From Gemella sp. (GTDB lineage: Bacteria > Bacillota > Bacilli > Staphylococcales > Gemellaceae): 64,000 nt of DNA. The stretch covers positions 1-64,000 of the forward strand of contig JAUMWC010000006.1 in NCBI GenBank assembly GCA_030529855.1. The letters are read 5' to 3'. Positions 1 to 6,016 of this stretch are shown in pieces. Position 1 is the first letter of the stretch. Every line of letters begins with the position of its first letter. The notes under the pieces are model-generated. The model worked only from the letters and a program-made list of their open reading frames with translations. It was not told the origin of the DNA and searched no databases. A program made the translations under genes and the position numbers.

Positions 1-652
1 CAGTGATTGGAGTTCCTTCTGGTACTTCTACTGTTCCTACTACTGGTGTGTATTTATCTGCATCTGTTGGAGTTCCACCTGTTGATGGTTTTGGTGTAAC
101 TTTAACTGGTACTTCAACTTCTTCTGTTGTTCCGTCTGGGTACTTGATTTCTACTGTTACTGTTCCTTTATCTCCTGCAGTTCCTGTTCCTGGTAGTGGA
201 TCTTTTACTGTTAATTCTAATCCTGGAGTGTTTTTGTCTAATCCTGGGATTGTTACTTTATCAGTAATGTCTTTATCAGTGATTGGAGTTCCTTCTGGTA
301 CTTCTACTGTTCCTACTACTGGTGTGTATTTGTCTGCATCTGTTGGAGTTCCACCTGTTGATGGTTTTGGTGTAACTTTAACTGGTACTTCAACTTCTTC
401 TGTTGTTCCGTCTGGGTACTTGATTTCTACTGTTACTGTTCCTTTATCTCCTGCAGTTCCTGTTCCTGGTAGTGGATCTTTTACTGTTAATTCTAATCCT
501 GGAGTGTTTTTGTCTAATCCTGGGATTGTTACTTTATCAGTAATGTCTTTATCAGTGATTGGAGTTCCTTCTGGTACTTCTACTGTTCCTACTACTGGTG
601 TGTATTTATCTGCATCTGTTGGAGTTCCACCTGTTGATGGTTTTGGTGTAAC
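1..652 (-). repeat. 276-bp tandem repeats encoding 92-residue Rib-like units
   Basis: Copies begin at 1, 277 and 553. The first two are nearly identical (I see one A/G difference, near 56/332), and the third matches for about 100 bases before switching to a different Rib unit. The period is a multiple of three, so copy-number change keeps the frame. The array continues beyond the left edge, so the total copy number is unknown. Confidence 0.93.
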
Positions 653-3600
653 GTTGATTGGTACTTCGATTTCATCGATTGTTCCATCTGGGTACGTTAC
701 TACTACTGTTACTGATGGTTTAGTTCCTGGCGTTCCTGTTCCTTTTTCGTCAGTTCCTGGGATCTCTGATGGATCTTTTACTGTTACTTTTGTTCCTGGA
801 GGGAATTCTCCGTTAGGGTTGTACTTAGGATCGTTTGTTACTTTATCAGTAATGTCTTTTTCAGTGATTGTAGTTCCTACTGGTACTTCTACACCGTCTG
901 TTACTGGTTCGTTGTTTAAGTTATCAACTGGCGTAACATTGATTGGTACTTCGATTTCATCTGTTGTTCCATCTGGGTACTCTACTACTACTGTTACTGA
1001 TGGTTTAGTTCCTGGCGTTCCTGTTCCTTTTTCGTCAGTTCCTGGGATCTCTGATGGATCTTTTACTGTTACTTTTGTTCCTGGAGGGAATTCTCCGTTA
1101 GGGTTGTACTTAGGATCGTTTGTTACTTTATCAGTAATATCTTTCTCTGTGATTGGAGTTCCTTGTGGTACTTCTACACCGTCTGTTACTGGTTCATTTC
1201 CAACGTTATCTTTTGGTACATACTTGATTGGTGTATCAGGTTGTCCGTTTGTTGGAACGTCTGGTGCGATGTATCCTTTAGTTGGATCTGTTGGATCTAC
1301 TGGTTTTAATGGTTGACCGTTTCCATCAACTGGAGTGTATCCATCTACGTGAGGAATTGTTGGTTTGTCATTTGTTACCTTAGTTGGATCTGTTGGATCG
1401 TTCTTGTATGGAGTTTCAGTTGTTGATCCATCTGGGTTAGTTACTACGAACTTACCTACTGGTTTGTAAACAACTTTTTCTACTACATCAGCATCAGTTG
1501 CGTTTACATCTCTAGCTGGTACTTCTGCTCTATCAGCTAAGTATCCTTCTACTACTGGTGATTTCTTAACATCAAATGTCTTGTCATCGTTAACAGCTGT
1601 CCATGGAGTGTAAGTTACTTCTCCTGTTACTAAGTTAACTTTCGCTTGTCTTGTAAATGTTACTTTATCAGTTACAGTTGTTGCTACTTCAGTTCCGTCT
1701 TCTTTAACGTAAGTTACTGTTTGCGTAACTTCTTCTTCAGTAGTTTCTAAGTTAGCGATTGTATCAGGCCATACTGGTCCGTTTGGATTGTTTGGATCCA
1801 CTGGTTGTCCTGGCTTAGCATCTTTAGGTACGTCAACTACTCTTGGTACTAATACTACTTCGAACTCTTGGTCTTTAGAAGCATCTTTATCAAAAGTCTT
1901 GTCTGAATCTTTGAATTCATCAGTTTTTGCTTCGTATCCTTGTTTGATGTACTCAGCTAATTTAGTATCGTAATCAGTTGATGGAATTGTAGTTCCTGAA
2001 TCTCCTGTTAGATCTACTTTATCAACTTCTTTACCATCAATTTCAAATACGATAGTAGCTTTTTGCTTGTCGATTACATATTTGATTGGTGTGTTTGTTG
2101 TTCCATCAGTTGGTACTGGTGGTGGGTTGTATCCTTTAGTTGGATCTGTTGGATCTACTGGAGTTAATGGGTTACCATTTCCATCAGTTGGAGTGTATCC
2201 TGGTACATAAGGAATTGGACCTGGAGTTCCTGGTTTCGTTGGATCTGTTGGATCGTTTGGATATGGAGTTTCAGTAGTTGATCCATCTGGGTTAGTAATT
2301 ACAACTTTACCGATTGGTTTGTAAACAACTTTTTCTGTTACGTCTGCGTCAGTTGCAGTGATTCCATCTTTTGTAGGAACTTCTGCTTTATCAGCTAGGA
2401 ATCCAGTTACTACTGGTGATTTTTTAGCATCAAATGTAGTATCGTTGTTTACTGGAGTCCAATCTCCGTAAGTAGGTTCTCCTGTTACTAAGTTAACACT
2501 TACTGTTCTAGTAAATTCAACTTTATCAGTTACAGTTGGTGCTTTATCAGCTTCTACTGGTGTTCCATCAGCATACTCGTAAGTTACTGTTTGGTTAACT
2601 TCTTCAGTTCTTACTAATTTATCTACACCTGCTGGCCATACTGGTCCGTTTGGATTGTTAGGATCTACTGGTTGTCCTGGTACTGCATCTTTTGGTACTT
2701 CAACAACTTTCGGTACTAATACAACTTTGAAGTCTTGATCTGTAGCTGCATCTTTATCAAAAGTCTTATCAGAATCTTTGAATGTATCAGATGTTGCTTC
2801 GTATCCTTGTTTGATGTATTTAGCTAATGTGTCTTCGTATTGTTTTGTTGGAATATTAGAGCTTGAAGCACCTGTCTCAGTGAATTTCTCAGCATCTTTT
2901 CCATCTACGTTAAATACGATGTTAGCTGTTTGTGTTACTGGTGTAACGTTGATTGGTACTTCAACTTCGTCGATAGTTCCATCTGGGTACGTTACTACTA
3001 CTGTTACTGATGGTTTAGTTCCTGGTGTTCCTGTTCCTTTTTCGTCAGTTCCTGGGATCTCTGATGGATCTTTTACAGTTACTGTTGTTCCTGGAGGGAA
3101 TTCTCCATTCGGGTTGTACTTAGGATCGTTTGTTACTTTATCAGTAATGTCTTTTCCAGTGATTGGAGTTCCTTGTGGTACTTCAATACCGTCTGTTACT
3201 GGTTCGTTATCTCCGTTTAATGGTTCTACTGTAATAGTAGTTGTTTTTGGAGCTGACTCTTTACCTTGGCTATCTACTGCTACGTAAGTAATAGTGTAAG
3301 TTCCTGGTTTAGTTGTATCTAATCCACCTTTGTCTGTTACTTTGATAGTAGCTTTATCACCACGGATACCTGTTACTGAATCATCTTCTTTATCAGTTTT
3401 TGTAACACCGTTTAATAATTCTTCATCAGTAATCTGAGTTCCATACTTAACAGTTTTTGGAGCTGGTAAGTTTTCTACTACTGGTGCTTCGTTAGTGATG
3501 TTGTTTGTAGATGATGCTTCGTTTCTAGCTGCATCTTCAACTTCAACTTTAACTTGAGATCCTTCTGGGATTACTACTCCAGCTGGTACTGGTAATGTAA

Positions 3601-5800
3601 GTTTTAAATCAGTCTTTTTAAGTACTACATTTCCTCTTGCATCATATGTTGGGTTTTCGATAGCTACTACAGAACCATCTTCACCTTTATAAACTGGTGC
3701 TTTAGGATCTGTTGTGTCTAGTACATACTCAACAGTCTTAGCTGGTCTACCATCAGAATCTGGGTAAGTTACTTCTAACGCTACTGGAGCTACGTTATCA
3801 GAAATTGTTGTTTTGATTTCTGGAGTTCCTGCAACGTTATCTTCAACAGTTACCACTGGTGGCATAGTGTCATTAACAACAATCTTAACTTGTTGTACAG
3901 ATACTAATTTGAATTTATCTGTTGGCTCTTCTTTAGTCCCTACATACTCAGTAAATAAGTCTCCACCTACATATCCGTTTCCGTCACCATTTGGTTGTGG
4001 TTTATCATATTTTGGATCTGTTGAAATATTATCGGCTACGTTATCTCTAGCTGCTACTACTAAGAAGTAAGTTCCTGGCTCAGCGATTGATCCTTTAATT
4101 ACCCCTACAGTTTCGTTAGCTTCGTTCTTAGTTAACTCAAAAGTTAAACCTAAAGCTGCGATATCTCCAAGTGAATCAGTTGTTACCTGAATGTGGTCAA
4201 CTTGTCCATTTGTAGATTTAGTAGTGATAGGAATATCGATCATTTGTTTTCCTTGATCAAATCGACGGTCTGGTGCCATTGCTCTTAAATAAGCGAATCC
4301 AGTTATTTCTCTATTTGGATCGTTAGGTAAGTTTCCATCTACTGATAATTCTGGTTTAGTGTTATCGATGAAGTACATGTTATCTTGTACTTGGTAGTAG
4401 TAACCTGACCCATCACCGATACCAGCGTAGAATTTAAGTTGGTTGTTACGGTCTAAGTCAGTTGGAACTACTACACGTGTAGCTGCATCTGTGTGTACAT
4501 CATATTTAATTGATGAAGTCACTTTATCATCAAAGAAAGCACCTTTAGACCATTTTAATGCCGTAGGAACTGCTCCAACTTGTAATTCTAATGTAGGCGA
4601 AGTTTGGAATGTAGATCTTGTGAAGATAGACCCTGTAGCTACTTGTAAAGTATAAATCGGAGATGGATTAGTTCTAGTTGCTTCTGTAATAGTGTATACA
4701 TCTGACCTCTTAACTTCTTTAGTTAAGTTGTTAACACCTTCTAGATATACTTGATCTCCAACTTTAAGGTCAACTCCTGTAGGACCACCAGTTTCAAATG
4801 GACGTAAATGGTCAATACCAGTTGCACCTGGTGCTGTAACTTTTGCATACGTAAATGGAATTATAGAATCATCAGCTGCATTTTTCAGTGTGTATTCTAC
4901 ACCTGGTTGTGCATAGAAGGCTACGTTAGCCGCTAAAGATCCAGTTCCTGGACGTTGTGCTACCACTTCTTTGAATTGTGGTTTCATCGTTTTCGTAGGG
5001 TCAATGAATAATATTTGATCTCCTACTTTATGAGCAACAGCATTTGGTTGAGATAATGGGTTACCAAACTCTTCCTCAGCTGTTGGGTTTTCTGCAGAGA
5101 AGAATACAGGAGCTTCTTTTACTACTGGTGCTTCTTCATCTTTTCTAGTTGCTACTGGTAAAGCTTTAACTACGTCAAAGTTTACAGTTTTGCTAGTAGC
5201 TCCTTTTTCTAAGATAGAAGTAATGATTACTTCACCTTGTTCTGGTGCTAATGTATATTCAGCTAATTGAGGAGCTGCTTTTAAGTTAGCTTTCTCAGTT
5301 ACTGGAATATTAGCTACTGCTACTGTTGTTTTAGTATTAGCTGATCTGTTAGCGCTAAATACTACTTCTTTTGTAGCTACGTCAGTGTAAGTTACTTTGT
5401 AAGTAACAGATGCTGTACGAGTAGCTTCTGCTTTAGGAACTTCTTTTGCTACTGGTGCAGTTTCTTCAGCCTTTGGAGCTGGTGTTGTTTCTGTTTTTGG
5501 TGCTACATTTGTTGACTCAGTTTTTGGAGCCGCTGTTGTAGCTGTAGTTGATTCTACTTTTGGCGCTGCCGTTGTAGTGTCAACTTTTGGTGTTTGAGCT
5601 GCCGCTGATGATGTTACCACTTCAGCAACTTTTTCAGCCGCAGTTGCAGCCGGAGCTACTACTGATGTTTCCGGAGTTGTTACTTCATTTGCTTGAGCTG
5701 TTGCTCCTGCAAAGAAAATACCGATTAATGCTGATGCAACACCAAACGAATATTTCTTAATAGTGAAACGTTGTTTCGTTTCGTTGTGTTTATTAAACAT
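1..5800 (-). CDS. YSIRK-type cell-wall surface adhesin with Ig-like, MucBP and Rib repeats (C-terminus outside window)
   Basis: At least 1933 codons are open to the left edge, so the C-terminus and the expected LPxTG sorting signal are not seen. The N-terminus holds a YSIRK-type signal peptide (FTIKKYSFGVASALIG, residues 12-27) with likely cleavage after residue 37 (ATAQA). Residues 38-130 are Ala/Pro/Thr-rich with degenerate APKTEST-like repeats. A long unique region to about 780 follows, then a bacterial Ig-like domain (about 780-860), a Rib-like unit (862-955), two long MucBP/Mub-type blocks (about 955-1242 and 1243-1525), two more Rib units and a 92-residue Rib array running off the edge. 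Rib and MucBP modules typify surface adhesins of streptococci, lactobacilli and relatives; mucin or host binding is inferred. The ATG at 5800 follows AAGGAAAC. The promoter has a G9 tract (see separate entry). A frameshift further in cannot be fully excluded, but I saw no stop in this frame. Confidence 0.9.
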   Translation of the reverse strand, partial: MFNKHNETKQRFTIKKYSFGVASALIGIFFAGATAQANEVTTPETSVVAPAATAAEKVAEVVTSSAAAQTPKVDTTTAAPKVESTTATTAAPKTESTNVAPKTETTPAPKAEETAPVAKEVPKAEATRTASVTYKVTYTDVATKEVVFSANRSANTKTTVAVANIPVTEKANLKAAPQLAEYTLAPEQGEVIITSILEKGATSKTVNFDVVKALPVATRKDEEAPVVKEAPVFFSAENPTAEEEFGNPLSQPNAVAHKVGDQILFIDPTKTMKPQFKEVVAQRPGTGSLAANVAFYAQPGVEYTLKNAADDSIIPFTYAKVTAPGATGIDHLRPFETGGPTGVDLKVGDQVYLEGVNNLTKEVKRSDVYTITEATRTNPSPIYTLQVATGSIFTRSTFQTSPTLELQVGAVPTALKWSKGAFFDDKVTSSIKYDVHTDAATRVVVPTDLDRNNQLKFYAGIGDGSGYYYQVQDNMYFIDNTKPELSVDGNLPNDPNREITGFAYLRAMAPDRRFDQGKQMIDIPITTKSTNGQVDHIQVTTDSLGDIAALGLTFELTKNEANETVGVIKGSIAEPGTYFLVVAARDNVADNISTDPKYDKPQPNGDGNGYVGGDLFTEYVGTKEEPTDKFKLVSVQQVKIVVNDTMPPVVTVEDNVAGTPEIKTTISDNVAPVALEVTYPDSDGRPAKTVEYVLDTTDPKAPVYKGEDGSVVAIENPTYDARGNVVLKKTDLKLTLPVPAGVVIPEGSQVKVEVEDAARNEASSTNNITNEAPVVENLPAPKTVKYGTQITDEELLNGVTKTDKEDDSVTGIRGDKATIKVTDKGGLDTTKPGTYTITYVAVDSQGKESAPKTTTITVEPLNGDNEPVTDGIEVPQGTPITGKDITDKVTNDPKYNPNGEFPPGTTVTVKDPSEIPGTDEKGTGTPGTKPSVTVVVTYPDGTIDEVEVPINVTPVTQTANIVFNVDGKDAEKFTETGASSSNIPTKQYEDTLAKYIKQGYEATSDTFKDSDKTFDKDAATDQDFKVVLVPKVVEVPKDAVPGQPVDPNNPNGPVWPAGVDKLVRTEEVNQTVTYEYADGTPVEADKAPTVTDKVEFTRTVSVNLVTGEPTYGDWTPVNNDTTFDAKKSPVVTGFLADKAEVPTKDGITATDADVTEKVVYKPIGKVVITNPDGSTTETPYPNDPTDPTKPGTPGPIPYVPGYTPTDGNGNPLTPVDPTDPTKGYNPPPVPTDGTTNTPIKYVIDKQKATIVFEIDGKEVDKVDLTGDSGTTIPSTDYDTKLAEYIKQGYEAKTDEFKDSDKTFDKDASKDQEFEVVLVPRVVDVPKDAKPGQPVDPNNPNGPVWPDTIANLETTEEEVTQTVTYVKEDGTEVATTVTDKVTFTRQAKVNLVTGEVTYTPWTAVNDDKTFDVKKSPVVEGYLADRAEVPARDVNATDADVVEKVVYKPVGKFVVTNPDGSTTETPYKNDPTDPTKVTNDKPTIPHVDGYTPVDGNGQPLKPVDPTDPTKGYIAPDVPTNGQPDTPIKYVPKDNVGNEPVTDGVEVPQGTPITEKDITDKVTNDPKYNPNGEFPPGTKVTVKDPSEIPGTDEKGTGTPGTKPSVTVVVEYPDGTTDEIEVPINVTPVDNLNNEPVTDGVEVPVGTTITEKDITDKVTNDPKYNPNGEFPPGTKVTVKDPSEIPGTDEKGTGTPGTKPSVTVVVTYPDGTIDEIEVPINVTPKPSTGGTPTDADKYTPVVGTVEVPEGTPITDKDITDKVTIPGLDKNTPGLELTVKDPLPGTGTAGDKGTVTVEIKYPDGTTEEVEVPVKVTPKPSTGGTPTDADKYTPVVGTVEVPEGTPITDKDITDKVTIPGLDKNTPGLELTVKDPLPGTGTAGDKGTVTVEIKYPDGTTEEVEVPVKVTPKPSTGGTPTDADKYTPVVGTVEVPEGTPIT
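645..1225 (-). repeat. 285-bp Rib-type repeat units (95 residues)
   Basis: Equivalent positions recur at 648 and 933, a 285-bp period. A third unit of the same type lies apart at about 2943-3215, separated by the two MucBP blocks. The shared DNA is strikingly similar, which suggests recent duplication or gene conversion within the gene. Confidence 0.85.
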
Positions 5801-5859
5801 ATATTTCTTGTTTCCTTATAACTTTTAAAATTTACACTTACTTTAAATAGTGTTTTATT

Positions 5860-5888
5860 ATTATACCCCCCCCCGACAAAATTGTCAA
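5860..5888 (-). promoter_or_regulatory. Adhesin promoter with G9 homopolymer spacer
   Basis: On the minus strand TTGACA (5883-5888) and TATAAT (5860-5865) are both perfect consensus, separated by exactly 17 bases: ATTTTGTC followed by nine G (5866-5874). The start site would fall near 5853, giving a leader of about 50 nt. GACAA-AA-TTGTC (5875-5886) forms a short inverted repeat over the -35. A G9 run in such AT-rich DNA, placed so that each slip changes promoter spacing, looks like a phase-variation switch. Confidence 0.85.
5866..5874. repeat. Mononucleotide tract C9/G9
   Basis: Nine consecutive C on the plus strand. I noticed no other C or G run of comparable length in the window. It lies wholly inside the -35/-10 spacer of the adhesin promoter. 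Confidence 0.95.

Positions 5889-5956: not shown

Positions 5957-6016
<60 letters not shown>

Follow-up and report, generated by a model that had tools for sequence, protein, structure and literature searches.

Introduction

Phase variation through changes in promoter spacer length is textbook knowledge for outer-membrane proteins of Neisseria and Treponema. In Neisseria meningitidis, a poly-G run between the -35 and -10 boxes of the surface-protein gene porA sets expression in steps of length: compared with 11G, the amount of surface protein is about 2-fold lower with 10G and about 13-fold lower with 9G (PMC3639595). The tp0126 promoter of Treponema pallidum also carries poly-G between its -35 and -10 boxes, and in this reporter-tested system transcription is best at a total spacer of 17 bp (PMC7864442). 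The products are a Gram-negative outer-membrane porin in the first case and a spirochaete OmpW homologue in the second.

Precedents of Gram-positive type have other designs. One is Spy1336/R28 of Streptococcus pyogenes, a surface protein of the YSIRK type that contains long tandem repeats and whose transcript level is altered by a one-base homopolymer change; the tract, however, consists of 9-11 T residues rather than Gs, lies in the intergenic region between divergent genes instead of a consensus spacer, and is linked to an AraC-like regulator (PMC7098570). In Bifidobacterium breve, slippage of a G-tract governs a sortase-dependent pilus, but here the tract is part of the coding sequence and shifts the reading frame (PMC9187656). 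A study of Gardnerella, a commensal but an actinobacterium, describes many long G/C runs upstream of genes for LPXTG and other surface proteins, and 9 versus 10 bases between colonies of one strain (PMC11287997).

Here, we analyzed a 64-kb stretch of Gemella DNA (the window), in which a G9 run lies between the -35 and -10 boxes of an adhesin promoter. The initial annotation could name no precedent for an adhesin of this type, which is too strong given the 9/10/11-T promoter switch of R28, itself a YSIRK, LPXTG protein (PMC7098570). Within open-access full text, we came across no account of Gemella or Streptococcus adhesins with poly-G spacer promoters, and none of a multi-locus adhesin repertoire with poly-G spacers in Gram-positives; a paper on Gemella virulence factors makes no mention of homopolymers or phase variation. 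The mechanism is known; it is the breadth that is unusual.

Results

A G9 run lies in the spacer of a consensus promoter upstream of a YSIRK adhesin gene

Searching the window, we read TTGACAATTTTGTCGGGGGGGGGTATAAT on the minus strand from 5888 to 5860. It comprises a perfect -35 hexamer, TTGACA (5883-5888), eight non-repetitive bases, ATTTTGTC (5875-5882), nine Gs (5866-5874), and a perfect -10 hexamer, TATAAT (5860-5865). The run abuts the -10 box and brings the spacer to 17 bp, confirming the boxes, spacing, and nine spacer Gs that had been annotated, and a promoter scan scored the site 12 of 12, the best in the region with no better alternative nearby. No other perfect TTGACA-N17-TATAAT occurs in the window, where 0.06 are expected (6 of 100 shuffles contained one), nor does any other G-run of at least eight (mean in shuffles, 0.03). 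The run falls entirely between recognizable -35 and -10 boxes, and at nine residues, a single value from one draft assembly, it is within the lengths (about eight or more) that the literature associates with instability (PMC11287997).

The start codon of the adhesin gene (minus strand, 1-5800) lies at 5800, about 60 bp from the promoter, and is preceded by a putative ribosome-binding site, AAGGAA (5812-5817, minus strand). The 1933 residues in view bear out the annotation of a large YSIRK adhesin: family searches place the YSIRK signal above both curated cut-offs (33.3 bits against 20 and 41.4 against 20.2, PF04650/TIGR01168), and the protein also has MucBP_2 and Muc_B2 domains and five Rib stretches. 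As the gene runs off position 1 of the window, which is also the end of the contig (C19:1), its C-terminus is outside the sequence and any LPXTG motif is out of view. Upstream lies an MFS gene in the same orientation, and its terminator (5957-5986, minus strand; a 13-pair stem and a T tail, with 0 expected in shuffles) isolates the adhesin promoter, so the adhesin probably depends on a promoter of its own. This arrangement, a G-run spacer with a same-strand MFS neighbor, is not that of R28 and alpha-like proteins, in which a T-tract separates divergent surface-protein and AraC-like genes. A (TA)14.5 dinucleotide repeat is also found upstream of the adhesin promoter, at 5986-6014 between the MFS stop codon and terminator.

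Among the other 14 genomes of the family we found no orthologue of this adhesin, only partial N-terminal matches. Paralogues on contig C21 of the same genome start similarly, with 53% identity over the matched N-terminus, and their promoters have no G-run, suggesting gain or loss of the device at the level of individual promoters.

Every long G-run in the genome directly precedes the -10 box of a YSIRK-type gene

The draft genome (1.61 Mb, 40 contigs) contains 26 G-runs of six or more, with overlapping matches collapsed by hand: 18 of G6, four of G7, none of G8, and then single runs of 9, 9, 10, and 12. Each of the four that reach eight or more sits directly 5' of the -10 box of a YSIRK-type gene. 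Besides the window locus (run at C19:5866; G9, 17-bp spacer, TATAAT), these are C33:98531 (G9, 17 bp, TAAAAT), C28:29940 (G10, 19 bp, TACAAT), and C28:48095 (G12, 21 bp, TATAAT). The genome has 16 YSIRK matches, and by our own rough estimate the spacers of YSIRK promoters make up about 1.5e-4 of its two strands; the probability that all four long runs fell there by chance is negligible. What had been annotated as a feature of a single locus is thus one of four in this genome, and it recurs in many Streptococcus species. The concentration of all long runs at this one position, with no intermediate G8, supports a spacer switch.

The open frame behind the G10 promoter stops after about 72 codons. 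This YSIRK-like gene (29.6-29.9 kb of C28; 3324-3940 of L013) is broken at that point, with more sequence open in another frame.

The architecture recurs in the genus, in Streptococcus, and across GTDB

We searched for TTGACA-N(4-14)-G7-TANAAT, using the reversed pattern as a control. The pattern is present in three of six genomes of the genus and in 0 of 144 from the rest of the order, with no control matches. Across 349 genomes of the class, it returned our four sites and one other (in G551), whose promoter core is that of a Streptococcus locus (L072, Streptococcus sp. Marseille-Q0941), suggesting that G551 belongs to this genus; the control again gave none. Streptococcus itself is rich in such promoters: 33 of 247 genomes (~13%, about one in eight) carry 54 sites, up to six in a single genome, and the control gave 0. 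The absence of reversed matches at class, order, and genus level, while the genus and Streptococcus abound in forward ones, is further support for a spacer switch.

Signal-like N-termini were present in 34 of 51 Streptococcus downstream frames, and 18 of the 51 carried an LPXTG-like motif close to where the sequence read ended; several of the genes encode YSIRK proteins. Others do not encode surface proteins: G-run spacers also precede a 277-aa family and, in three genomes (G766, G854, and G942, with runs of G7, G8, and G10), the housekeeping sugar epimerase galE. Hence, the device is not exclusive to adhesins or other surface proteins.

Two candidate signals were set aside. An apparent phylum-wide excess of the shorter G7-TATAAT was seen in 18 of 299 genomes, but TTGACA was missing upstream of 16 of the 17 sites in other genomes; the short pattern therefore matches mostly by chance, and it is the full pattern that carries signal. 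A C before the run looked promoter-specific (84 of 128 promoters), yet it also precedes 11 of the 21 remaining G-runs at these loci. The exact promoter was not found in viral contigs.

Run length differs between closely related promoters

We paired related Streptococcus promoters by the identity of their flanks; toward the lower end of the ranking, partners may be unrelated genes whose promoters are similar. In one pair, G919 and G772, the flanks are identical at 75 of 75 positions (35/35 and 40/40), and the runs are G10 and G11. The same promoter group includes a G11 (G764, 97% identical upstream) and a G8 (G823). Promoters of galE differ among themselves, with G7, G8, and G10. Among three YSIRK paralogues of G943 the runs are G10, G9, and G9, and G804 has two copies, one with G15 and one with G14. 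Overall, run length differs in 29 of 37 pairs and is the same in 8, as read from draft assemblies in which homopolymers may be miscalled. Matched promoters from other taxa, in metagenome-assembled genomes (MAGs), differ as well (G9 and G10 in L056 and L097; G9, G10, and G8 in L030, L077, and L127).

These differences bear on whether the promoter is simply strong and static, its G-run a fixed spacer that is kept for DNA stiffness or as a binding site and rarely changes in length. Such a promoter would fit the exactly optimal 17 bp that G9 yields, the same spacing at two of our four promoters, and the pairs of unchanged length. Against it stand the other two promoters, at 19 and 21 bp, the large share of pairs that differ, and the slippage of G-runs of nine or more in other bacteria (PMC3639595; PMC11287997), and we consider it unlikely. 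Instead, the unequal runs of otherwise near-identical Streptococcus promoters support a spacer switch.

One core, TTGACAAAAATGTTC-G12-TATAAT, is letter-identical in our genome (G000:C28:48089-48121) and in a Streptococcus genome (G967:C274:18123-18155), which belong to two families, and the gene called downstream in the latter differs from that at C28:48095. Judged from the sequences, the match could reflect either exchange or convergence.

Spacer lengths are promoter-like and downstream products are often exported

In GTDB, sampled at one genome per species, the same pattern occurs in at least 116 stretches. Among the matches listed, 100 of 119 promoters have a spacer of 16-20 bp. By a simple hydrophobicity rule of our own, 66 of 93 downstream frames (71%) among these listed matches look exported, compared with 154 of the 533 remaining frames at these loci (29%; Fisher p = 2e-14). 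Both the spacing and the enrichment, within the matches listed, support a spacer switch.

The spacing also speaks to a design in which the run varies but acts through regulator binding or promoter melting and not through the distance between the boxes. This has been proposed for opc and tprL and is possible for the R28 T-tract (PMC7864442; PMC7098570), and a run directly abutting the -10 box would suit it. As the run is wholly between a perfect -35 and a perfect -10, and the 119 listed promoters center on promoter-like spacings, we regard this as slightly less likely even than a static promoter. A chance run or assembly artifact is most improbable: homopolymer lengths can be miscalled in a 40-contig draft, but all four long runs are placed identically within promoters of one gene class, and independent assemblies show the architecture again while yielding zero matches to the reversed pattern. 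The presence of a G-run at the adhesin promoter is well supported, more firmly than its exact length.

In five MAGs of Clostridia (L067, L083, L028, L108, and L119), G8 promoters run into a long inverted repeat beginning at the -10 box itself (TAAAATAGGGTATC...GATACCCTATTTTA), with nearly alike flanks at several of the loci.

Discussion

The best explanation for these data, to which we assign a probability of roughly 0.8, is a slipped-strand spacer switch of the porA/tp0126 type that grades transcription of the adhesin. Spacing is how this design operates in porA (PMC3639595) and tp0126 (PMC7864442), which supports this reading; in porA, measurements cover both the variation in length and the protein levels. 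The G9 run would be a hypermutable element between the -35 and -10 boxes of the main adhesin promoter, and slipped-strand mispairing at replication would add or remove single Gs, changing the spacer length. By analogy, the promoter in the window is at the optimum spacing, as 17 bp is the best state of tp0126. Spacers of 16 and 18 bp would be somewhat weaker, and those of 15 bp or less and 19 bp or more weak to silent. A one-base slip would then weaken the promoter moderately, and a slip of two or more would bring it close to silence, such that each lineage would inherit a reversible, graded level of surface protein. We infer that the run slips at this locus, that transcription responds, and that the outcome has a role in adhesion or immune evasion.

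The initial annotation called the element a likely ON/OFF phase switch. A spacer that varies by slippage is well supported by anatomy and comparison, but the porA data suggest graded output and not a simple ON/OFF. The annotation also expected graded or silent expression after gain or loss of one or two Gs; judging from the graded steps of porA (PMC3639595), a change of one from 17 bp is probably not OFF, and a clear OFF would take about two or more bases. On the same scale, the sister promoter at 19 bp is predicted to be weak and that at 21 bp to be OFF, so that the assembled genome would hold two promoters at the optimum, one weak, and one OFF.

More broadly, we lean slightly toward the view that promoters with poly-G spacers make up a large, as yet undescribed group of contingency loci among Gram-positive and candidate-phylum bacteria, setting several wall adhesins per genome independently. 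Under this view, promoter cassettes may also pass between Streptococcus and the Gemella lineage, a possibility raised by the letter-identical G12 core. If the switch works as proposed, adhesin expression in this Gram-positive commensal and in the Streptococcus carriers would be set partly by heritable chance, and a reference genome would record only one state of each switch. The rule used here (TTGACA, a short spacer, at least G7, TANAAT) lists candidates in any genome, and these can be tested with existing reads.

A/T runs of 14-19 bases also occur upstream of surface-protein genes in our genome. They precede YSIRK-like or exported genes at C5:6020, C17:12775, C21:589, C23:560, and C34:24109, with further runs at C16:23827, C23:50654, and C40:24051. 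Those at C34, C16, C23:50654, and C40 end 4-5 bases before a TATAAT, so the spacer switch may have an A/T counterpart.
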